Shown here: piece by piece, positions 4,094 to 43,464 of the stretch
Numbering within the stretch: the stretch's first letter is position 1
Layout of the letters: each line of letters starts with the position of its first letter
Origin: Bacteroidota bacterium
GTDB taxonomy: Bacteria; Bacteroidota; Bacteroidia; Bacteroidales; VadinHA17
Assembly: GCA_029547705.1 (NCBI GenBank)
Contig: JAKPOU010000034.1
Location: 84,508 to 148,507 of the forward strand
Direction of reading: 5' to 3'
DNA length: 64,000 nt
The notes under the pieces: model-generated
The model's database searches: none
The model's input: only the letters and a program-made list of their open reading frames with translations
What the model was told of the DNA's origin: nothing
Position numbers and translations under genes: made by a program

Positions 4094-7000
4094 TTATAAA
4101 ATGATTATTCTGACTGTTCCCGAAGCCTCCTCGCCATCGTCCGTACGGACTGTTAACCTGCAGAAATAGATGCCTTTTCCGGCTCTTTCCCCGCCATCGG
4201 TATTTCCGTCCCACAGCAGCGGTGACAGACGGTAACCGCCTGACCAGGTTTCCTCCTTTATTATTCTGATGGTTCTCCCGCTCACATCAATTATGCTGAT
4301 GGTAATTTGAAGCCTGCGGTCGGGCCGGTTATGGTTTGCACTTATTCTTGCATCACCGGCAACCGGATTCGGGTAAACGACAATGTCCCTGAGCATGAAT
4401 TTTTCTTCCGGTGTAACGGTGAAGCTGATGGTTTTACTGGAAGAATTGTTGAAATTATCCCAGGCTTTAAGGGTAAGGGTATGGTTTCCTTCCGGCAGAT
4501 CACTCAGGGCATAGCTGATTCTTCCCCTCGTATGGCTGTTAAAATCACTTTCAAAATAATTATTCAGGATGATTGCTGAAGCGGGGTCATTGTCGAGATA
4601 TGCTGTAATGTCGTGACCGATTCCCGCCCCCGTGGTGTTTATCCCTCCCTCATCCTCAATTATTGCCAGTATTCTTGGATTCGGGCAGCTGATTCCTCCG
4701 CTTCTGAAAAGAGTGTCATTGAGATATAATTTTATCAGCGGTCCGGCAGTGTCGCTAGCGGCGGTATTCTCGAATCCCCCGACGATTATTCCGGAATAGC
4801 TGCCGTTCATGTCGCGTGTTTCGTCCTTTGCGTAGTAGCTTATTTTTCCTGTTCCGAAGGAATAGTTAATATCTCTCGGAACCATGAAGGTAAAGCTGAA
4901 TCGGCCGTTTGCCGCCTTTGTTTTCCCGCTGAAAAGAATGTTGTTCCTCATTTCAAAGGTCATCGGCGGTCCGCCGTCGTTTGCCAGTGTCCTGATTATG
5001 GCGGGCTTGTCGTAGATCACCTGCGACACCGTTCCGTTGAAATCATCAATAAGGGTTCCTCCGTGATCCTCGATATGACCTGATATGGTTATTGTTGAGA
5101 GTGCTTTAAGGGTATCGGCAGCACTGCCTGCAGGCCCATGGTTTATTGAGTCGGTAATTACTTTCCCGTGAGGGGGAAATGCCAGTATTACCGCGGGGTC
5201 GCCCAGCAGGGAAAAGTTCCTCTTATTGGGTCCGTCTCCCGAATTATTCTTTGCAATCCGCATGATATCGCCGAGAGCCAGTGGTTCACCGGATTCCCTC
5301 AGCCTGATTATCGCATCGTAAATATTGCGGTTCAGGTAATAGTTCGGGGCTGAATAGGCAACGCGTGTTGTGGACATCAGTGCTATTGCCCCCCCGCCGG
5401 GATTCAGCAGTACCTTTTCGCCGGCCGATGTTCTCGGACTTATAATCTTTGTGGCCATATTTATATCAGCGTCGTCGAATCTGCTGAATTCACATGTGGC
5501 CGTTATGAAAAGGGGAAGCTTTGTCCCGTTCTTCCAGGAATTGATATCTTCGGTTTTTACGACTCTTTCATGAGCGAGTCCGTTTTCATTTCCGTGGCCG
5601 ACATAGTTGAAGATCAGACAACCGGAATTTATACGGTTATTGATTGCTATTGTTACGTCGGGATAGGACTGGCCGGCTGCCGAGGTCTCCTGCCTGAATG
5701 CATCCAGATAGATTTTGTCCACATTTATTTCCGGAATACTGTCCTGAAGGAGCAGGCTGAGACCTTCCGCATCTGCCATATGAGCATTGCCGTCTTCATC
5801 GTCGGCAACCATGCATACTATGTTCTTCCATTCACCCGTGTTGGATGATTCAAGGTATCTTCTTATCTTGTTTACCACAATACCAGCCTGAAGGGTATCC
5901 GTCACGGGAATGCGCCCGATGCCGATATCCTCGGTTCCTTCGGCTTCACCCTTCCCGTCTTCAAGCAAGCCGTAGAAATCGTCAGAGGTGAATGAAGAGA
6001 CAATGATGTTTGAATTCTGTGACTGATAGGTAGGAATATAATTGGGGCTGTTCGGGGGAGGCGTTTTATTCTCATATGAGCCGTCGCCGAAAAGGAGCAG
6101 GTATCTCAGAGGGGTGGCTGTGTTTTTCTGCCTGAGATATTTCATCCGGAGAAAATTCCTGATGGCAGCTATATCGGGAATGCCTCCCGAGAATTCATTA
6201 TAGATCTCCCCGGGCGTTACTATCTGTGAAACAAGTCCCTCTCTTTCAAAATGCAGATCAGCAAGCTTTTTTGCATATTTTCTGAACAGGGGATGAGTTA
6301 CTATAACCATTTCCGCGGGTGGGGAAGCGTGAAGATCCTGGTTTGCCACGGGACCCGGCCTGAAAACGGGCTTCAGTGCATCTGACTCGCTGAAGATCAC
6401 AAATTTCCTCAGTGAATCAGAATTGGCCCTGAAAACAATATTTTCCCCTGATCTTGCCGGGTTCACGTTTTTCGGATTGCCTGCATCCGTAATATCCCAT
6501 ACAAGAGGATTCCTGCCGGGACTGTTCACGGAATATTCAGTCAGGTTTCCCGCTGAGACAGTCCTTGAGTCGAGGACATGAAGTGTTTTTCCCCTGTAAA
6601 CATTGTGCTTTCTTGCATGCAGAGTCACAAAGTCCAGCCATCCCCTGGCGCCGGGGTCCTTTTCATTCCTGAATCCTATCCGGTAAACCGGTGTAGCCGA
6701 CAAAGGCAGCACCGTTCCCGAGGAATCGCTTATACGGGCATAGGTTCCCGTATAATTGTACATGTTCACATCCTGCACAAGGATTGTGTTCAGCAGGCTT
6801 TCCCCTTCCGAGAAGCTGAATTGTGAAACTGAGGGAGCCCTTGCCAGTACCCTTATCCTGTATCTGATTTCGCCGGTACTTACCAGATCCGTGAATTCAG
6901 GCCTGATTTCAACAGGCGTAAGTGAAGAAACCGGCTGATACCATTCCCGTCCGGATTTTATAATATTTTCTGTTTCCAGTTCATGGATGAAAAGAAGATC

Positions 7001-7534
7001 TGATTCTGATGAATAATAGTCCGGTTCCTCCGTATGGACCGCAGCAGCGGATATTGTTCTGGCGGCTCCCCCTCCCGATGTTATGAAATAGAAGGCGGTA
7101 TCCGAGTAATTGTGCCTGACAAAATCATATCTGCCTTCGCCTTCATTATACTTCCATCTGTGGGTTGCCTGTCCGTAAAAGAGCAGATAATCACCTTCAC
7201 CGAAGATGCCGTCGCTTCCGGTTGAAAGCAGTACTGAAATCTCCCTGAGGTCATCCGGTGCCGGATCGCCGGTGAGGTATGAAAGCTGGCCCCAGTTACT
7301 GGCAAAGAGCCTTGGGCCGGAAGGATCGCTCAGACCGGCCTCTTTCAGCTGTGAATAGCTTATCTTATAGATACCGTCTGCTGTCACCGCAATTTTAAGC
7401 CATTTCCCTGATGAGAGGACCGAAGATGCAGAATAGTTTTCAATGGATGATTGTGAATACAGAATGGCGGGTATAAAAGCCAATATAAGTGATATATTAT
7501 GCAACAATCTGAACATCATTACGTACAAAGACAC
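4094..7534 (-). CDS. porU: Type IX secretion system C-terminal signal peptidase PorU (gingipain-like C25 fold)
   Basis: 1146 aa; C25-type catalytic regions FNYVGHGNENGLAHERV (His) and LFITATCEFSRFDD (Cys); C-terminal CTD-like domain VVYPNPVAGDARI...; adjacent to porV. Confidence 0.93.
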   Translation of the reverse strand: MSLYVMMFRLLHNISLILAFIPAILYSQSSIENYSASSVLSSGKWLKIAVTADGIYKISYSQLKEAGLSDPSGPRLFASNWGQLSYLTGDPAPDDLREISVLLSTGSDGIFGEGDYLLFYGQATHRWKYNEGEGRYDFVRHNYSDTAFYFITSGGGAARTISAAAVHTEEPDYYSSESDLLFIHELETENIIKSGREWYQPVSSLTPVEIRPEFTDLVSTGEIRYRIRVLARAPSVSQFSFSEGESLLNTILVQDVNMYNYTGTYARISDSSGTVLPLSATPVYRIGFRNEKDPGARGWLDFVTLHARKHNVYRGKTLHVLDSRTVSAGNLTEYSVNSPGRNPLVWDITDAGNPKNVNPARSGENIVFRANSDSLRKFVIFSESDALKPVFRPGPVANQDLHASPPAEMVIVTHPLFRKYAKKLADLHFEREGLVSQIVTPGEIYNEFSGGIPDIAAIRNFLRMKYLRQKNTATPLRYLLLFGDGSYENKTPPPNSPNYIPTYQSQNSNIIVSSFTSDDFYGLLEDGKGEAEGTEDIGIGRIPVTDTLQAGIVVNKIRRYLESSNTGEWKNIVCMVADDEDGNAHMADAEGLSLLLQDSIPEINVDKIYLDAFRQETSAAGQSYPDVTIAINNRINSGCLIFNYVGHGNENGLAHERVVKTEDINSWKNGTKLPLFITATCEFSRFDDADINMATKIISPRTSAGEKVLLNPGGGAIALMSTTRVAYSAPNYYLNRNIYDAIIRLRESGEPLALGDIMRIAKNNSGDGPNKRNFSLLGDPAVILAFPPHGKVITDSINHGPAGSAADTLKALSTITISGHIEDHGGTLIDDFNGTVSQVIYDKPAIIRTLANDGGPPMTFEMRNNILFSGKTKAANGRFSFTFMVPRDINYSFGTGKISYYAKDETRDMNGSYSGIIVGGFENTAASDTAGPLIKLYLNDTLFRSGGISCPNPRILAIIEDEGGINTTGAGIGHDITAYLDNDPASAIILNNYFESDFNSHTRGRISYALSDLPEGNHTLTLKAWDNFNNSSSKTISFTVTPEEKFMLRDIVVYPNPVAGDARISANHNRPDRRLQITISIIDVSGRTIRIIKEETWSGGYRLSPLLWDGNTDGGERAGKGIYFCRLTVRTDDGEEASGTVRIIIL

Positions 7535-26674: not shown

Positions 26675-26957
26675 GCCGCATGGAGGCAGGGTCTGCCTTG
26701 TTTTCCGGATTTCCGGTTCTGGCTCGATTCCATCGCGCTTAACGGAAATGCCTTGCAGAACTTCCCGGATTCCGCCAGGAATATTTTCATCCTTTTTTGT
26801 GGAATCAGCATGCAGGGTTTAATACTCCGCGGATGATAAATAGATTATGAAAAATGATTTCTTTCCAAAAAAGTGATGAAAAATAAAAATGAATTGATTA
26901 AGGGGTTTATCTTTGACACTTGATCTGTGATTTTAAGGATTCTGTAATAATTAAACT

Positions 26958-28109
26958 ATGGTGAAGAAAAGAAGTATAGACGAGATCAATGAGAAGATCC
27001 GCGGCGGAAAGGCAGTAGTGCTTACTGCTGAACAGGTTGCGGCTATGGGAAAGGAAATGACTCCGGCAGAGATATTCAGCAGGGTAGATGTGGTTACCAC
27101 TGCCACATTCGGACCCATGTGCTCGTCGGGAGTTTTTATCAATTTCGGACATACCACACCACCAATCCGGATGGAAAGAATAACACTCAACAATGTTCCG
27201 GCCTACGGGGGGATTGCTGCGGTAGATGCCTATCTGGGTGCAACCGAGACAGCCATGCCCAATGACCAGTATGGAGGGGCCCATGTGATTGAAGAGCTTA
27301 TTTCGGGAAAGGATGTTCTTCTGGAGGCAAGTGCGAAGGGAACCGATTGTTATCCCCGTACTGAAGTAAAGACCCTTATCAATAAGGATACTATCAATGA
27401 AATGATAATGTTCAATCCCCGGAATGCATATCAGAATTATAATGTGGCGGTGAACAGTACTCATAAGATAAAGTACAGCTATATGGGTACCCTGCTCCCT
27501 TCCCTGGGGAATGCCAATTTTTCCACTTCCGGAGAGCTGAGTCCTCTGCTGAACGATCCGGAGCTGCGCACTATCGGCATAGGAACAAGGATCCTTTTCG
27601 GCGGCACTACGGGTTATGTGGCATGGCACGGAACTCAGTTCAATACCGGCAAGCCGGTCAATGAATATGGTATTCCTGTTGGTAATTCTGCTACCCTGGC
27701 TCTTATAGGAGATGCGAAACAGATGAGCACCAGGTTTATCAAAGCAGCATATTTCGAGAGATATGGTGTTTCGATGTTCGTCGGGGTCGCTGTTCCGGTA
27801 CCCGTGCTTGATGAAGATCTGGCAAGAAGGGTCTCTGTTAACAACAGACAGATAGAGACCAATGTCATAGATTACGGATCGGGAAATTTTGAAGTTCTGG
27901 GACGTGTTGACTATGATTCTCTTTTTTCAGGGAGGATCACCGTCAACGGAAAGAAGATTCGCACAGCACCTCTGTCAAGTGTCAGGACAGCAAGAGAGCT
28001 GGCGGATATCCTCAGGCTTGAAATAAGTGAAGGACGGTTTTTCCTCACGGAACCAATTGCTCTTTTTAAGAAGACAAGCGGACTGAACAGCCTGGAAATA
28101 AGACTTTGA
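26958..28109 (+). CDS. COG1900/DUF39 homocysteine biosynthesis protein (no C-terminal CBS pair)
   Basis: 383 aa; FGPMCSSGVFINFGHTTPPIRMERITLNNVPAYGGIAAVDAYLGAT, ASAKGTDCYPR; Cys55 and Cys131 counted from the ORF. Confidence 0.9.
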   Translation: MVKKRSIDEINEKIRGGKAVVLTAEQVAAMGKEMTPAEIFSRVDVVTTATFGPMCSSGVFINFGHTTPPIRMERITLNNVPAYGGIAAVDAYLGATETAMPNDQYGGAHVIEELISGKDVLLEASAKGTDCYPRTEVKTLINKDTINEMIMFNPRNAYQNYNVAVNSTHKIKYSYMGTLLPSLGNANFSTSGELSPLLNDPELRTIGIGTRILFGGTTGYVAWHGTQFNTGKPVNEYGIPVGNSATLALIGDAKQMSTRFIKAAYFERYGVSMFVGVAVPVPVLDEDLARRVSVNNRQIETNVIDYGSGNFEVLGRVDYDSLFSGRITVNGKKIRTAPLSSVRTARELADILRLEISEGRFFLTEPIALFKKTSGLNSLEIRL

Positions 28110-28134
28110 TGTTTTAATTTTTTAATTTCAGATT

Positions 28135-28545
28135 ATGGCAAGCAAAAGATTTGTTCTGACTTTTCCTCCTGATGCAACAGGACAACCAATCACATATAAT
28201 CTCATAAAGAAGTTCGATATTATGATCAATATCGTCAAAGCCGATGTTTCGCCCGGCAAGATCGGACATCTTGTCATTGAAATGACAGCACCGGCCAGGG
28301 TCCTGAAAGAGGGAATGGAATACATTAAACAGCAGGATATTCAATGTGATCCTATCGAAAAGAAGATCACTTACAGGGAAGACCTCTGCATTCATTGCGG
28401 GGCATGTACGGCAGTATGCTTTGCCGGAGCACTTACCATGAGACGTGACAATGCTGAACTATTGTTCGAACCTGAAAAATGTGTTGTCTGTGAGCTCTGT
28501 CTGAAAGCCTGTCCGCTGAAACTTTTTTCCATAGATATTGGTTAA
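28135..28545 (+). CDS. NIL domain + two [4Fe-4S] ferredoxin motifs
   Basis: 136 aa; NIL-like N-terminus (RFVLTFPPDATGQPITYNLIKKFDIMINIVKADV) plus CIHCGACTAVC and CVVCELCLKACP. Confidence 0.92.
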   Translation: MASKRFVLTFPPDATGQPITYNLIKKFDIMINIVKADVSPGKIGHLVIEMTAPARVLKEGMEYIKQQDIQCDPIEKKITYREDLCIHCGACTAVCFAGALTMRRDNAELLFEPEKCVVCELCLKACPLKLFSIDIG

Positions 28546-29296
28546 AAATACTTCATACCAGCCAAGGCTCTACCGCGAAAGCATGGGTAATGACAGATGG
28601 CAGGTCTTCAGATCGTTATACCGGGAAACAGATTTATGGGTTGCAGCAGGCCGGGAATATTCCCTGACGGATGTGGAAGCCTTTACGAAGCAGAGGGTCA
28701 TATATTACAGAAATATTCTTGAAGACCATATCCGGAGGCAACCCGGATTTAAAACATCCCTTGTTCCGGTTTCAGAACTGACTGATACGGAGCCTCTTAT
28801 TGCAGAAATGTACAGGGCATCCTCAGCTGCCCTTACCGGACCCATGGCTGCGGTTGCGGGAGCCATCGCACAGTTTGTATGCAATGATCTTACTGATGAA
28901 TTCAGCCTTGGGGAGGTAGTTGTTGAAAATGGCGGAGATATTTTCCTGAAACTTGAAGATGAGGCGGTAATCTCGGTTTATGCGGGAACATCACCTCTTT
29001 CCGGAAAAGTCAGTCTGCTGGTGAAGCCTGAAGAAACACCCCTTTCTGTCTGTACTTCTTCAGCAACGGTCGGCCACGCTTTCAGTACGGGAAAAGCCGA
29101 TGCATGCATGATTGCATGCCGGTCAGGAGCATTGGCTGATGCATATGCCACGAGCTTCTGCAACAAGGTAAAAAGCAGGGACCAGGTACAGGAAACAGCG
29201 GAAGAAGCCCTGAAAAAACCTGATATTCTTTCTGTAGTGATCATAATGGATGACGTGGTCGGATTAGGCGGAAGGCTGTCATTTCAATTTGCTTAA
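28538..29296 (+). CDS. UPF0280/COG2122 family protein
   Basis: 252 aa; AAVAGAIAQFV, VVENGGDIFLK, SVCTSSATVGHAFSTGKADACMI; TTG start overlapping the preceding gene by 8 bp. Confidence 0.87.
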   Translation: MVKNTSYQPRLYRESMGNDRWQVFRSLYRETDLWVAAGREYSLTDVEAFTKQRVIYYRNILEDHIRRQPGFKTSLVPVSELTDTEPLIAEMYRASSAALTGPMAAVAGAIAQFVCNDLTDEFSLGEVVVENGGDIFLKLEDEAVISVYAGTSPLSGKVSLLVKPEETPLSVCTSSATVGHAFSTGKADACMIACRSGALADAYATSFCNKVKSRDQVQETAEEALKKPDILSVVIIMDDVVGLGGRLSFQFA

Positions 29297-29489: not shown

Positions 29490-29900
29490 ATGAAAAATTT
29501 AATTATGAACCGGGTGGATCATGCCAGGATATTGAAATGCATAAATGATGCAAGAGACATGAATACCATCAGTTCAGAGGAAGCTGAAAATCTCCTCCAT
29601 GAACTGAATTCCGCAAAAATTGTGGAGCCCAAGGACGTTCCTGTCAACCTGGTGACGATGAATTCGATAGTGAAAATCAGATTTATCAACACGGACAAGC
29701 AGATACAGTTCCGCATAGTATATCCCGACCAGGCTGATCTGAAGGAAAACAAAATATCAATTTTTTCTCCGGTGGCTACAGCGCTTATCGGATACAAAGT
29801 CAATGATGAGATTGAATGGCTCATTCCTTCGGGCATGACTACAATCAGAATAGAGGAGATTATTTATCAGCCCGAGGCTGCGGGAGATTATACATTGTAA
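29490..29900 (+). CDS. GreA/GreB-like (Rnk-type) transcription elongation factor domain protein
   Basis: 136 aa; VPVNLVTMNSIVKIRFINTDKQIQFRIVYPDQAD...ISIFSPVATALIGYKVNDEIEWLIPSGMTTIRIEEIIYQPE. Confidence 0.88.
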   Translation: MKNLIMNRVDHARILKCINDARDMNTISSEEAENLLHELNSAKIVEPKDVPVNLVTMNSIVKIRFINTDKQIQFRIVYPDQADLKENKISIFSPVATALIGYKVNDEIEWLIPSGMTTIRIEEIIYQPEAAGDYTL

Positions 29901-36418: not shown

Positions 36419-39400
36419 GTGTTACTTCTGATGAAAAAAATGAACCTGATCAATATGAGGCATAACAGTATTGTTTCGTTTCTTAAATCGATTATCAGTT
36501 TCCTTGCAGAATTCTTCCCGCTCTGGATTTTTTCCGAAGATGAAACTGTATTGTCCACCAGGCTGAAGAGGCCCGATCCGGCGCAGTACATCCTTCCTGC
36601 AATGGTCAGTGTCTTTCTCGGTTTCAGCGGACAGTGGAACATGGCCGGGGCACAGGGCTGTGATCCTTCCTTCAGAAATTGCCCGGGTGATATAGTGGTA
36701 AATGTTCAGCCCGGAACCTGTGGCAATAATGTTTCCTGGACAGCTCCCGTAATGACTGCTCCCTGTCCCGGATATACTGTTACAAGCAACCATGAACCCG
36801 GGAATTTCTTCAATGCCGGGACAACCACCGTGACGTATTTTTCCTGGGAAGGAACAGAAAAAAAAGATTCCTGCAAGTTCAATGTCATTGTTATTGATAA
36901 TCAAAAACCTGTTGTTCTGACAAAGAACGCGAACCTGTATATTGGCCAGTCGGGGACTGCAATACTCAGAGCTGCCGATATAGACAATGGTTCGTACGAC
37001 AACTGCTCTCTTATACTGGTGCCTTCCAGGACGGTTTTTACATGCTCTGATGTGGGACAGACCATAGCTGTAATGCTCAGGGGCAGTGATCCTTCAGGAA
37101 ATTCATCGGCTTCAGGTGCCCTGGTAACTGTTTATGACACTGTCCGCCCGGTTATCATGACCAGGGAATTTACGCTGACACTGGACAATAACGGGACAGG
37201 TATTATTCAGGCATCAGATATCGATAACGGAACTTATGACAATTGTGGTCCGGTTACATTATCCGTCACACCTTCGGTGTTTTCCTGTGCCGATCAGGGA
37301 GACCGGACAGTAAGATTTACCACAACAGATATTCATGGCAATACTGCTTCAAGGGATGTATTCATTTCTGTACGGTCATCGCTGAAAATCCATAGTATAT
37401 CTCTAAGCAACTGCGATGCCGTGGGCACATATTCCCTTTTCAACCTGAATGTATCGGGAGGTGCTGGAAATTATACTTATTTCTGGGATTGCCTTGATGA
37501 TAACGTAAAACCGTTTGTCCAGGAAATACCTTACTATCCTTATGTTTCATTTGCAAATACGAGCCATAAGGTTACTCCTTTTTTCAATAATAATATTCCC
37601 AACGGTAGCTATACCATAAGGCTGACGGTCACAGACGGGAACGGATGCCGGGATTCGGCCGATATGCTGATAATAAAAAGCGGTCCTGTTTACGGGAACG
37701 TTAATTTCAGGAAGTCGGTAGCCTGTGAAGGGTCTGTTGTGACCTACACGGTCAATCCCGATCCCGTAGCAACATTTGACTGGGAGGTGGAGAATGGCAC
37801 CATATTGTCGTCTGTTCCCTATTCCAATTCGGTTGAGGTCCGGTGGAATCTTGGAGTTACCAGGGGAGTGGTTAGGGCAACACTCAACAAAACCAATCTG
37901 GTAGGCGAGCCATGCGCCGCTACGGTTATTGATTCTGTTTCCATTGATCTTATACAGCCTCCGGTATTTAATAATCCTGTCAACATTGCATGTATGGGAT
38001 CAGAAGAGATCTATACCCTGACAGCACCTTACCAGTTTTATGAATGGTCTGTCACAGGTGGTGTCATCACAGAGGGAGGCTCGGATAATAATTTTGTCAG
38101 GGTGAGATGGAATGAGGCCCCGGCGGGGAAAGTTGAGGTGATTGTAAGTACGCCCGCAGGATGTTCGTCCTCGGCTTTTGTGGATGTCATTATAAATAAT
38201 CTTGAAGGAAGCGTGGTTTCGTTGACTGATATAAGCTGTAACGGAGCTGCAAACGGCATGGTTACGGTTGCAGCAGTGGAGGGGTCCGGCCTGGCGCCAT
38301 ATGAGTATTCCCTGGACGGAGGAACGTATCAGTCATCAGGCAGTTTCGTAAATATTGGTCCCGGTCCGCATATTGTTACAATACGCGATGCACATTCATG
38401 TACCTTTGATGTCGGCTTCAATATAACTCAGCCTGTAATCCTTGTTGCTTCAGTAAACAAGTCAGATGTTAGCTGTTTTGGCGGATCTGACGGCTCCGTC
38501 TCTGTAGCGGGATCGGGCGGAACCGCACCCTATGAGTACAGTCTCAATGGCGGTCCTTTCCGGACTTCGGGCAGTTTTCCCGGTCTTCCTGCAGGTTCAT
38601 ACACAGTGCAGGTAAGAGACGCAAATCTGTGCACGTTTGTACAGAAGGTTATGATTATGCAGCCGGATGCGGTTTCGGCTTCTGCTGAAGTCACAATACC
38701 CGTGAACTGTCACGGCGGAACGGCCACTGTCGCCATCACCGGCAGCGGCGGCACACCGCCCCTGTCATACACCTTCAACGGATCCGTCAGTACGACCGGA
38801 GTATTTCCCGGTATCAGTGCAGGCGTCTATGAATGGAGTGTTACTGATGCCAATGGCTGCGGTCCCTTCAGGGGTACTCTTGAAGTTACCGAACCCCCAC
38901 AGCTTTCGGGTTCAGCTTCGGTTACCGGAGCAATAGACTGTCATGGCGGAACGGCCATAGTCACTCTTACCGGCAGCGGAGGCACATCACCCCTGACATA
39001 CACCTTCAACGGCATCAGCAATGATACCGGCATATTCACCGGTATTCCCGCCGGAAACGGATACAGCTGGAGTATCACCGATGCAAATAACTGCGGTCCT
39101 GTCAGTGGTGTCATAAATGTCACAGAACCACCTCCCATAAACGGTGCCGCGTCGGTTACAACGGCGATAGAATGTCACGGCGGCACGGCCACTGTTCGGC
39201 TTACGGGAGGCGGCGGCACGGCACCCCTGACATACACTTTCAACGGCATCAGCAATGATACCGGCATATTCACCGGTATTCCCGCCGGAAGCGCCTACAC
39301 GTGGATCATCACAGATTCCCGTGGCTGTGGTCCGGTTACGGGTACACTTGACGTTACTGAGCCGGCAGTTATAACCGGTTCCGCCATGATCCTTGTTCCG

Positions 39401-42400
39401 GTTCAGTGCAACAGCGGAACGGCCACTGTTCAGCTTACGGGAGGCGGAGGCACGGCACCGCTGACATACACCTTCAACGGTATCAGCAATGAAACCGGCA
39501 TATTCACCGGTATTTCCGCCGGAAACGGATATATCTGGAGCATCACCGATGCAAATAACTGTTCGCCTGTCACAGGTGTTACGGATATTTCAGAGCCTCC
39601 CGTCATAAGCACTGCTGCAAGCGTTGCAACGGAGATAACCTGCCATGGTGGCACTGCCACCGTTACCATTACCGGCAGCGGTGGCACACCGCCCCTGTCA
39701 TACACCTTCAACGGATCCGTCAGTGCGACCGGAGTATTTCCCGGTATCAGGGCAGGTGTCTATGAATGGAGCGTTACCGATGCCAATGGCTGCGGTCCCT
39801 TCACGGGTACTCTTGAAGTTACCGAACCCCCACAGCTTTCGGGTTCAGCTTCGGTTACCGGAGCAATAGACTGCTATGGCGGAACGGCCACAGTCACTCT
39901 TACCGGCAGCGGAGGCACATCACCCCTGATATACACCTTCAACGGCATCAGCAATGGTACCGGCATATTCACCGGTATTCCCGCCGGAAACGCCTACATC
40001 TGGAGCATCACCGATGCAAATAACTGCGGTCCTGTCAATGGTGTCATAAATGTTACAGAACCTCCTCCCATAAACGGTGCCGCGTCGGTTACAACTGTGA
40101 TAGCATGTCATGGCGGAACGGCCACAGTCACTCTTACCGGCAGCGGAGGCACATCACCCCTGATTTATACCTTTAACGGCATCAGCAATGGTACCGGCAT
40201 ATTCACCGGTATTCCTGCCGGAAGCGGATACAGCTGGAGTATCACTGATGCCCGTGGCTGCGGTCCTTTTACCGGCACTGTTGATATTTCGGAGCCCGAA
40301 GTGATAAATGCTTCGGTATCAATCACGGAGCCGATAATCTGTTACGGAGGCACAACAACAGTTATTTTAACGGGAAGCGGCGGCACGGCACCCCTGACAT
40401 ACACTTTCAACGGCATCAGCAATGATACCGGCATATTCACCGGTATTCCCGCCGCCGACGGATATATCTGGAGCATCACTGATGCCAATAACTGTACGCC
40501 TGTAACCGGTACCATTGATATTTCAGAGCCTCCCGCCATAAGCGCTGCTGCAAGCGTTGCAACGGAGATAGCATGTCACGGCGGAACGGTCACTGTCGTC
40601 ATTACCGGCAGCGGCGGCACACCGCCCTTGTCATACACCTTCAACGGATCCGTCAGTGCGACCGGAGTATTTCCCGGTATCAGTGCAGGCGTCTATGAAT
40701 GGAGCGTTACCGATGCCAATGGCTGCGGTCCCTTCAGGGGTACTCTTGAAGTTACCGAACCCCCACAGCTTTCGGGTTCAGCTTCGGTTACCGGAGCAAT
40801 AGCATGTCATGGCGGAACGGCCACAGTCACTCTTACCGGCAGCGGAGGCACATCACCCCTGACATACACCTTCAACGGCATCAGCAATGATACCGGCATA
40901 TTCACCGGTATTCCTGCCGGAAGCGGATACAGCTGGAGTATCACTGATGCCCGTGGCTGCGATCCTATTACCGGCACTGTTGATATTTCGGAGCCCGAAG
41001 TGATAAATGCTTCGGTATCAATCACGGAGCCGATAATCTGTTACGGAGGCACAACAACTGTTATTATAACGGGAAGCGGCGGTACTGCACCCCTGACATA
41101 CACTTTCAACGGTATCAGCAACAGGACAGGGATCTTTGCGGGAATACCTGCGGGTTCTGATTACCACTGGAGCGTCACGGACACTTACTTATGCACCCCG
41201 GCAGCGGGAACACTGGACATCACGGAACCTCCGGAATACAGAGCTGAAATTACTTTTATCACGAATGTGTCAGTTTCCGGCGGCAATGACGGAAGTGTAA
41301 CAGTTGAGGCGTCGGGTGGCACAGCTCCGTATCTGTTCAGACTGAATTCGGGAAGCTATCAGCCGTCAGGATCGTTCAGTGACCTGACTGCGGGCAGTTA
41401 TTCCGTCACCGTCCGGGATGCTGCCCTATGTGAAACAGTATTGACTGTAAGAATTACCGAGCCGGTCGTACCTCTTTCCGGCACACTGGTTTCGAAGGAA
41501 GATATTTTATGCTTCGGGGCTTCTACCGGTATGATTACCGTAAGCGGAACAGACGGACTGGCACCTTATGAATACAGCCTGAACGGAGGTGATTTCCGGT
41601 CTTCGGGTATCTTTACGGATCTTTCTGCGGGCAGCTATATTGTGACAATCAGGGATGCACAGCCTGAGGAATATCATATAATGGTAATCCTTGATGAACC
41701 TGCCACAGCTGTCAGCGTGGAAACCAGGGTGATAAACAATATTTGCCACGGAAGCAACCGTGGTATTGCCATAGCCATTGCAGACGGAGGAACAGGGCCC
41801 TACGAATTTTCATGGAACAGCTTGCCTGTGCAGAAAAACGATACAGCTTCGGGACTGGCAGCCGGCACCTATACTGTAACGGTTGATGATGCCAATGGCT
41901 GCAGGGTAACAGCCTTTGCTGTCCTGACAGATCCTCCGCCGCTGACGCTCGGGGTGATAACAACAGATGCCGATTGCCCTGACACCTATGAGGGTTCTGC
42001 GGAAGTTACCGTAAGCGGAGGCAATGCACCCTACAACGCTTTCTGGGAAGACGGAAACACATCCTTCAGCCGGACTGAAATGTTGCCGGGCACCTACAGG
42101 CTTATCGTGACGGATGCCGACGGATGCGTCGCGCAAGAAGATATTGTGATAGGTTACAGCGGTACCTTCGGCTGTCTTGAGATACCCCAGGTCATTACCC
42201 CGAACAATGACGGGTTCAATGATGAATGGAGGATCAGGAATATTGAGATGTATCCGGATGCTGAAGTCCTTGTTTACACCAGGTGGGGCAAGCTTGTCTA
42301 CAGGTCGAGGAATATATCCGCTGATCCCTGGGACGGAAGGTTTAACGGGCGGCTGATGCCTACGGATTCATATCATTACATATTGTATCTGAATGACGGC

Positions 42401-42439
42401 TCCAGGCCGAGGACGGGTGTAATAAGCATAATCAGGTAA
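36419..42439 (+). CDS. Giant T9SS adhesin: HYR-like domains, SprB-like repeats, gliding-motility-associated C-terminal (type B) sorting domain
   Basis: 2006 aa; CPGDIVVNVQPGTCGNNVSWTAP (HYR); many ...CHGGTATVTLTGSGGT.PLTYTFNG... units; C-terminus VITPNNDGFNDEWRIRNIEMYPDAEVLVYTRWGKLVYRS...YHYILYLNDG. First ATG in frame is 36431 (36419 is GTG). Confidence 0.92.
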   Translation: MLLLMKKMNLINMRHNSIVSFLKSIISFLAEFFPLWIFSEDETVLSTRLKRPDPAQYILPAMVSVFLGFSGQWNMAGAQGCDPSFRNCPGDIVVNVQPGTCGNNVSWTAPVMTAPCPGYTVTSNHEPGNFFNAGTTTVTYFSWEGTEKKDSCKFNVIVIDNQKPVVLTKNANLYIGQSGTAILRAADIDNGSYDNCSLILVPSRTVFTCSDVGQTIAVMLRGSDPSGNSSASGALVTVYDTVRPVIMTREFTLTLDNNGTGIIQASDIDNGTYDNCGPVTLSVTPSVFSCADQGDRTVRFTTTDIHGNTASRDVFISVRSSLKIHSISLSNCDAVGTYSLFNLNVSGGAGNYTYFWDCLDDNVKPFVQEIPYYPYVSFANTSHKVTPFFNNNIPNGSYTIRLTVTDGNGCRDSADMLIIKSGPVYGNVNFRKSVACEGSVVTYTVNPDPVATFDWEVENGTILSSVPYSNSVEVRWNLGVTRGVVRATLNKTNLVGEPCAATVIDSVSIDLIQPPVFNNPVNIACMGSEEIYTLTAPYQFYEWSVTGGVITEGGSDNNFVRVRWNEAPAGKVEVIVSTPAGCSSSAFVDVIINNLEGSVVSLTDISCNGAANGMVTVAAVEGSGLAPYEYSLDGGTYQSSGSFVNIGPGPHIVTIRDAHSCTFDVGFNITQPVILVASVNKSDVSCFGGSDGSVSVAGSGGTAPYEYSLNGGPFRTSGSFPGLPAGSYTVQVRDANLCTFVQKVMIMQPDAVSASAEVTIPVNCHGGTATVAITGSGGTPPLSYTFNGSVSTTGVFPGISAGVYEWSVTDANGCGPFRGTLEVTEPPQLSGSASVTGAIDCHGGTAIVTLTGSGGTSPLTYTFNGISNDTGIFTGIPAGNGYSWSITDANNCGPVSGVINVTEPPPINGAASVTTAIECHGGTATVRLTGGGGTAPLTYTFNGISNDTGIFTGIPAGSAYTWIITDSRGCGPVTGTLDVTEPAVITGSAMILVPVQCNSGTATVQLTGGGGTAPLTYTFNGISNETGIFTGISAGNGYIWSITDANNCSPVTGVTDISEPPVISTAASVATEITCHGGTATVTITGSGGTPPLSYTFNGSVSATGVFPGIRAGVYEWSVTDANGCGPFTGTLEVTEPPQLSGSASVTGAIDCYGGTATVTLTGSGGTSPLIYTFNGISNGTGIFTGIPAGNAYIWSITDANNCGPVNGVINVTEPPPINGAASVTTVIACHGGTATVTLTGSGGTSPLIYTFNGISNGTGIFTGIPAGSGYSWSITDARGCGPFTGTVDISEPEVINASVSITEPIICYGGTTTVILTGSGGTAPLTYTFNGISNDTGIFTGIPAADGYIWSITDANNCTPVTGTIDISEPPAISAAASVATEIACHGGTVTVVITGSGGTPPLSYTFNGSVSATGVFPGISAGVYEWSVTDANGCGPFRGTLEVTEPPQLSGSASVTGAIACHGGTATVTLTGSGGTSPLTYTFNGISNDTGIFTGIPAGSGYSWSITDARGCDPITGTVDISEPEVINASVSITEPIICYGGTTTVIITGSGGTAPLTYTFNGISNRTGIFAGIPAGSDYHWSVTDTYLCTPAAGTLDITEPPEYRAEITFITNVSVSGGNDGSVTVEASGGTAPYLFRLNSGSYQPSGSFSDLTAGSYSVTVRDAALCETVLTVRITEPVVPLSGTLVSKEDILCFGASTGMITVSGTDGLAPYEYSLNGGDFRSSGIFTDLSAGSYIVTIRDAQPEEYHIMVILDEPATAVSVETRVINNICHGSNRGIAIAIADGGTGPYEFSWNSLPVQKNDTASGLAAGTYTVTVDDANGCRVTAFAVLTDPPPLTLGVITTDADCPDTYEGSAEVTVSGGNAPYNAFWEDGNTSFSRTEMLPGTYRLIVTDADGCVAQEDIVIGYSGTFGCLEIPQVITPNNDGFNDEWRIRNIEMYPDAEVLVYTRWGKLVYRSRNISADPWDGRFNGRLMPTDSYHYILYLNDGSRPRTGVISIIR
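38670..41235 (+). repeat. 11 tandem ~78-aa SprB-like units arranged as a 933-bp higher-order repeat
   Basis: Anchor GGATCCGTCAG occurs at 38780, 39713 and 40646 (both intervals 933 bp); long near-identical DNA tracts between periods. Confidence 0.95.
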
Positions 42440-42450
42440 AGAGGAATATT

Positions 42451-43464
42451 ATGAATATGATACACATGAAATACGTCAGATGCTTATTGCTGATGGCTGT
42501 TTTAGTTTCATTCAGCAGGGAATTATATTCACAGCAGGTTCCCATGTACAGCCAGTACATAATGAACGGATATCTTGTCAATCCCTCCTTTGCCGGCCGT
42601 GATGGCTATTCTACCATAACTCTGACCGCCAGGGAACAGTGGGTGGGACTTGCGCAGAATCCGGCAACCTATGCTGCCAGCTTTCAGACCAGACTTCTGA
42701 AGAACAGTTATATATCAAAATCCACCGAAGTCAGGAAAAAGCTCGTAAAACCTTCACGCGGAAGCAGGGTAGGGATGGGTGGCTATATTTTCAATGATAA
42801 TAACGGCATTATGAGACGTACCGGTCTGCAGGCAATATATGCATATCATATTCCCATCGGCCGGTCCGAAGAAAGCAGGAGCAGCCTTTCCTTCGGACTC
42901 GCAATGACTGCATATCAGTTTGCAGTAAACACTGATAATCTGATATATGATATTGATGATCCCTTTCTGAACACGTATAAGAAATCAGTCTTTATTCCGG
43001 ATTTCAATTTCGGTACAAGTTATACTTCGTCCCGTTACTATGTGGGTTTTGCCATGACCAACCTGCTCAGGGGATCCCTTCTCTTCGGTGATGTTGAAAA
43101 TTCCAGAAGAGGAGAGCTGGGTCACTTCTATCTTACCGGGGGAGTTAAATTCCCTGTAGCCGAAGACTGGATAATTGAACCTTCCGCATTTGTCAAATCC
43201 TCGGATATGGTTTTCAAGTCGATCCAGATGGATATTACATCAAGGGTTTACTACAAAAATGATTACTGGGCAGGATTGTCGTGGAGGACTAACGACGCCC
43301 TCATTCTTCTGCTGGGCCTGAAGTATGACAGGTTTTATTTTGCCTATGCCTTTGATTTTACCCTCACGGATATAAGGCGTCAGAGCAACGGGACACATGA
43401 ACTGACGGCAGCAGTCAAGTTTGGTGAAAGTGCACGCCGGTACAGATGGATCAATTCATTCTGA
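42451..43464 (+). CDS. PorP/SprF family type IX secretion membrane protein (adhesin partner)
   Basis: 337 aa; QQVPMYSQYIMNGYLVNPSFAGRDGYSTITLTAREQWVGLAQNPATYAASFQT; 11 bp downstream of the adhesin gene. Confidence 0.94.
   Translation: MNMIHMKYVRCLLLMAVLVSFSRELYSQQVPMYSQYIMNGYLVNPSFAGRDGYSTITLTAREQWVGLAQNPATYAASFQTRLLKNSYISKSTEVRKKLVKPSRGSRVGMGGYIFNDNNGIMRRTGLQAIYAYHIPIGRSEESRSSLSFGLAMTAYQFAVNTDNLIYDIDDPFLNTYKKSVFIPDFNFGTSYTSSRYYVGFAMTNLLRGSLLFGDVENSRRGELGHFYLTGGVKFPVAEDWIIEPSAFVKSSDMVFKSIQMDITSRVYYKNDYWAGLSWRTNDALILLLGLKYDRFYFAYAFDFTLTDIRRQSNGTHELTAAVKFGESARRYRWINSF

Follow-up and report, generated by a model that had tools for sequence, protein, structure and literature searches.

Homocysteine synthesis directly from aspartate semialdehyde and sulfide is an established pathway, and UPF0280 (COG2122) proteins had already been linked to it (PMC5764234). 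In D. vulgaris Miyazaki, methionine rescues mutants in each of the DUF39 (DvMF_1464), NIL/ferredoxin (DvMF_0262), and COG2122 (DvMF_0044) genes, which represent the same three families as the genes described here and are required for homocysteine. For homoserine dehydrogenase mutants of D. vulgaris threonine alone is enough, and homoserine is therefore not an intermediate in that organism (PMC5764234). The D. vulgaris genes carry distant locus numbers and the classical routes are apparently missing, whereas the present genes form one tight operon in a genome that also carries metY-metX-hom.

The L-ASST of Methanosarcina acetivorans (MA1821-MA1822), together with MA1715, shares with the present system a COG1900a protein with Cys54/Cys131, a NIL/ferredoxin protein, a COG2122 homologue, and the company of a second route. 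MA1821 differs in carrying a CBS domain. In this enzyme C54A is nonfunctional and C131A lowers activity without abolishing it. Its NIL and CBS domains are proposed to act as sensors of methionine and SAM, and deletion gives no methionine phenotype, owing to the second pathway (PMC12068725). Earlier work reported in PMC5764234 had found a DUF39 cysteine of M. acetivorans as a persulfide in vivo and raised the idea that a thioaldehyde might be reduced by ferredoxin. Among bacteria, Dehalococcoides DET0921-DET0919 has been given the same pathway (PMC5764234); the Dehalococcoidia loci fetched for this analysis, from a different phylum, have the gene order found here and about 50% identity in HcyBio.

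Layout of the three-gene operon

The window is the whole 64,000-nucleotide stretch of DNA that was analyzed. Three ORFs, all on the + strand, were found at exactly the positions given in the preliminary description (26958 to 29296), confirming an intact, tightly packed operon. Its features are as follows.

26908 to 26915, + strand: candidate Bacteroidota −7 promoter box TATCTTTG (TAnnTTTG), 50 nt 5′ of the HcyBio ATG
26958 to 28109, + strand: HcyBio/DUF39/COG1900a gene (383 aa; PF01837, 473 bits)
28135 to 28545, + strand: gene for the NIL plus two [4Fe-4S] ferredoxin subunit (136 aa; PF09383 and Fer4 matches)
28538 to 29296, + strand: COG2122/UPF0280 gene, ApbE-like fold (252 aa, TTG start; NF003323, 234 bits; 2o34)

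The TTG start of the UPF0280 gene overlaps the stop of the ferredoxin gene by 8 nt. Every one of the 14 loci checked, namely the window and 13 close relatives, has both the overlap and the TTG. In 13 of 18 related loci a TAnnTTTG sequence, the Bacteroidota −7 motif, lies 42 to 52 nt 5′ of the start codon of HcyBio, against a chance expectation of ∼2% per 90 nt. Given this box and the 8-nt TTG overlap, the three genes appear to be transcribed together from a promoter of their own and to be translationally coupled. Riboswitch control was rejected, as Rfam searches of the window and the met loci at gathering thresholds returned tRNAs only, and the candidate promoter box lies merely ∼50 nt 5′ of the ATG. 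The same gene order was kept in fetched loci from Bacteroidales, Clostridia, Dehalococcoidia, Bathyarchaeota, and Archaeoglobus.

Downstream of the operon, positions 29490 to 29900 encode a short GreA/GreB C-terminal-domain protein, a homologue of which lies just 3′ of COG2122 in loci L003 and L075. Elsewhere the window carries a C25 peptidase (4094 to 7534) and a 2006-aa SprB-repeat protein with a CHU_C type IX secretion signal (36419 to 43464), which adjoins a PorP/SprF protein.

The HcyBio and NIL/ferredoxin proteins

The family identities proposed in the preliminary description were borne out by profile searches, with matches of a strength far beyond chance. The HcyBio protein, product of the single PF01837 gene in the genome, scored 473.4 bits against that family (E value, 4.7e−142; curated cut-off, 26.2). 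In the 136-aa protein a NIL domain (PF09383; E value, 4.9e−15) is accompanied by two Fer4 clusters, and all eight cluster cysteines were invariant in 25 homologues; a NIL domain with two [4Fe-4S] clusters is expected of the partner protein in an L-aspartate semialdehyde sulfurtransferase system. The third protein scored 234 bits against NF003323 (NCBIfam PRK04334 family, UPF0280; E value, 1.9e−69), under the curated cut-off of 271, and matched the structure 2o34 with an E value of 5.5e−28.

Two cysteines of HcyBio had been put forward as candidate catalytic residues, and both are present and widely kept: Cys55 (GPMCSSG) in 45 of 47 aligned homologues and Cys131 (GTDCYPR) in all 47. They were equated with Cys54 and Cys131 of MA1821 via the residue numbers in PMC12068725, not by direct alignment. 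In M. acetivorans the equivalent of Cys55 is essential but Cys131 is not, as C131A there still has reduced activity (PMC12068725). Both homologues lacking Cys55 are cyanobacterial (L063:6001-7230 and L068:6001-7194) and have Glu at this position with Cys131 kept. No NIL/ferredoxin or COG2122 gene was found near either of them in the fetched flanks, and these proteins possibly catalyze a different reaction.

The lack of a CBS pair, also noted beforehand, agrees with the length of the protein, which at 383 aa stops just past the HcyBio domain and so leaves no room for one. Archaeal homologues fetched were ∼472 to 565 aa long, excepting the MMP16-like L078 to L080; the other bacterial homologues fetched likewise lack CBS domains, as judged by length. 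A Thermotogota contig (L035:2888-4339) carries a natural fusion, in which a single 484-aa ORF joins HcyBio to two Fer4 clusters and apparently lacks a NIL domain; COG2122 comes next.

AlphaFold2 modeled HcyBio with a pLDDT of 94.9 and a pTM of 0.92. A Foldseek search of the PDB with this model returned nothing at an E value of 0.001 or better (best, 0.14; TM-scores of ∼0.1 to 0.2). Single-sequence and profile searches of PDB sequences identified no credible relative, the weak profile matches being nearly all antibody chains. The predicted fold thus has no match among the solved structures in the PDB.

Classical homocysteine genes elsewhere in the genome

The preliminary description proposed checking the genome for absence of the classical route (metA/metX and metB/metY). 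In the genome to which the window belongs (3.78 Mb in 70 contigs, 92.9% complete), a family search for metA (PF04204) found it absent, but the check fails on another contig (C69, 54,234 bp), where the following were located using fetched locus L127.

L127:7710-11237 (about 39.7 to 43.2 kb of C69): metY-metX-hom operon
L127:15819-17144: aspartokinase gene near metY-metX-hom

MetY scored 632 bits against TIGR01326 (cut-off, 495) and retains the SATKW lysine motif, and the homoserine dehydrogenase scored 319 against NF004976 (cut-off, 205). MetX reached 331.1 against NF001209 (cut-off, 331) and 353.6 against TIGR01392, under the cut-off of 500; it retains the GASIGG motif around the expected nucleophile as well as the Asp and GHD motifs, completing the Ser/Asp/His set. 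Contamination from another bin is unlikely, because metX also occurs in the sister genome G297, and G278, a member of the genus, carries the same metY-metX-hom operon at 69 to 78% protein identity. At most, then, the DUF39 operon provides one of two routes to homocysteine in this genome; it is not the sole one.

Occurrence, possible replacement, and descent

Rather than being exceptional in Bacteroidota, the system was found in 31 of 117 genomes of the same GTDB family and 10 of 247 across the order, counted by HcyBio/DUF39. COG2122 was present in 30 of the 117 family genomes, 29 of which had both genes. The two genomes with HcyBio and no COG2122 (G325 and G345) probably reflect an assembly gap, as their fetched loci stop within the NIL/ferredoxin gene. 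In the order-wide sample of 247 Bacteroidales genomes, co-occurrence was obligate, with COG2122 in 10/10 genomes with DUF39 and 0/237 without it (Fisher p, 5e−18, a value that overstates the evidence, as related genomes are phylogenetically nonindependent). The association holds when the genes are unlinked: in G030 they lie on different contigs, and in G068 they are ∼15 kb apart.

Among family genomes of at least 90% completeness, neither metX nor metA was found in 16 of 22 with HcyBio, compared with 5 of 47 without it (Fisher p, 4e−7, overstated for the same reason). For this count a metX match needed ≥200 bits; a 155-bit match in G335 did not count, and a metA fragment at a contig edge in G292 did. 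Elsewhere in the order, six of nine further HcyBio genomes had neither gene. This pattern fits the substitution of one homocysteine route by the other, with the genome studied here among the few dual-route genomes. The five family genomes of at least 90% completeness without HcyBio, metX, or metA (G260, G264, G274, G343, and G360) may be auxotrophic for methionine or may rely on another route.

The HcyBio and rpoB trees concur on the subclade (G325, G292, (G000, G297)), where G000 is the genome of the window. As the two subtrees are identical, the operon looks vertically inherited within this subclade, and recent horizontal gain into G000 was rejected. Placing all HcyBio copies of the genus in one clade was rejected (AU p, 7e−6); with G294 removed, it was not (p, 0.55). 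The copy in G294 (L090), a metA-positive member of the genus, groups within another genus, suggesting one horizontal transfer. Between the window and the isolate represented by L019 and L075, both dual-route relatives, dN/dS was 0.02 to 0.19 for the three operon genes, which indicates that the operon is maintained by purifying selection even beside metX. This isolate was taken to be G297 because the gene is split into the same two pieces.

With metY-metX-hom present, the DUF39 operon need not be the main source of homocysteine in G000. It is about an even question whether it is redundant or conditional there, a reading that would refine rather than contradict assignment of the operon to homocysteine synthesis. 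The division of labor in this reading would leave ordinary growth to hom-metX-metY and call on the DUF39 operon when, for example, conditions are sulfide-rich, strongly reducing, or limited in acetyl-CoA or homoserine. The complete operon on C69, with its MetX catalytic set and MetY lysine motif, favors this reading, as does the precedent of the L-ASST deletion without a methionine phenotype in M. acetivorans (PMC12068725). Against it, both systems look intact, the DUF39 operon is under purifying selection between dual-route relatives, and metX and metA are both missing from close relatives such as G325, so that in them the operon is probably the main route.

The COG2122 protein

The preliminary description took linkage in the operon as support for a role of UPF0280 in the pathway. 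Such a role exists, but the proposal is not novel, since genetic proof was published for D. vulgaris in 2018 (PMC5764234). The COG2122 protein here shares about 33% identity with its homologue from D. vulgaris Hildenborough (PDB 2o34). Its predicted structure (pLDDT, 91.7) retrieved 2o34 first in Foldseek, followed by ApbE flavin transferases (E value, about 2e−6).

This resemblance, together with GGD and ADAxAT-like motifs in COG2122 that resemble those of ApbE, raises the question of whether COG2122 is an ApbE-type flavin transferase that flavinylates an operon partner. Such a function is very unlikely. A Pfam search at an E value of 0.001 matched no family, and thus gave no curated ApbE match; at the sequence level the relationship to ApbE is barely detectable (profile E value, about 1.6). 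ApbE FAD:protein FMN transferases have a similar fold, but their flavinylation target motif is missing from the operon partners here, with no motif of this type found in HcyBio or the NIL/ferredoxin protein. An obligatory persulfide carrier function through Cys172 (the CTSS cysteine) was likewise rejected, as this residue is not universal: 6 of 32 homologues have Ala or Ser instead, among them one from Bacteroidales and those from Bathyarchaeota.

A more specific proposal, which we put forward tentatively and regard as rather doubtful in its entirety, is that COG2122 may belong exclusively to the aspartate-semialdehyde sulfurtransferase, as a part it cannot do without, and may not be a general sulfide-assimilation or persulfide factor. 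Its ApbE-like pocket would then have been reused, for example in nucleotide-dependent activation of DUF39, and the enzyme itself would have a fold unlike any solved.

Proposed mechanism and significance

The operon very probably encodes an L-aspartate-4-semialdehyde sulfurtransferase system that stands beside O-acetylhomoserine sulfhydrylation (hom-metX-metY). The families, cysteines, and partners support the sulfide-dependent conversion of aspartate semialdehyde to homocysteine that was originally proposed, and COG2122, the other genomic mark of such a system, is present. We infer that the system is active in its host, where HcyBio/DUF39 would transfer sulfide-derived sulfur to the aldehyde carbon of aspartate semialdehyde. 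The sulfur would probably be bound as a persulfide on Cys55, with help from Cys131. The NIL/ferredoxin protein would give two electrons to reduce an intermediate at the thioaldehyde level, yielding homocysteine, and through its NIL domain it may also detect methionine as a feedback signal. COG2122 would be a dedicated third component that is needed, probably to load DUF39 or to keep it in its sulfur-charged or active form. Homoserine would be bypassed, and in G000 the system would run beside the complete hom-metX-metY route.

That HcyBio acts instead on another aldehyde, as MMP16 (COG1900d) does on sulfoacetaldehyde for coenzyme M, and that the operon does not serve methionine synthesis, is highly improbable: COG1900 paralogues do differ in substrate (PMC12068725) and a dual-route genome needs no second homocysteine route, but the MMP16/coenzyme M synthase model TIGR03287 scored only 113 bits on HcyBio (cut-off, 363.95), the protein has both COG1900a cysteines, the NIL/ferredoxin and COG2122 partners accompany it, and HcyBio is anticorrelated with metX/metA.

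The comparative facts that are new here are the tracking of DUF39 by COG2122, the anticorrelation with metX/metA, the conserved TTG overlap, and the unmatched HcyBio fold. The locus offers a compact, single-operon version of the route from aspartate semialdehyde and sulfide to homocysteine. Of interest are the function of COG2122, the structure of HcyBio, and the retention of both routes by some genomes. In Bacteroidales, the perfect match between the distributions of COG2122 and DUF39 narrows what COG2122 does to this homocysteine pathway. The patchy spread of the operon in one Bacteroidales family, often in genomes without metX or metA, helps to account for the gaps in methionine synthesis that uncultured Bacteroidota appear to have.
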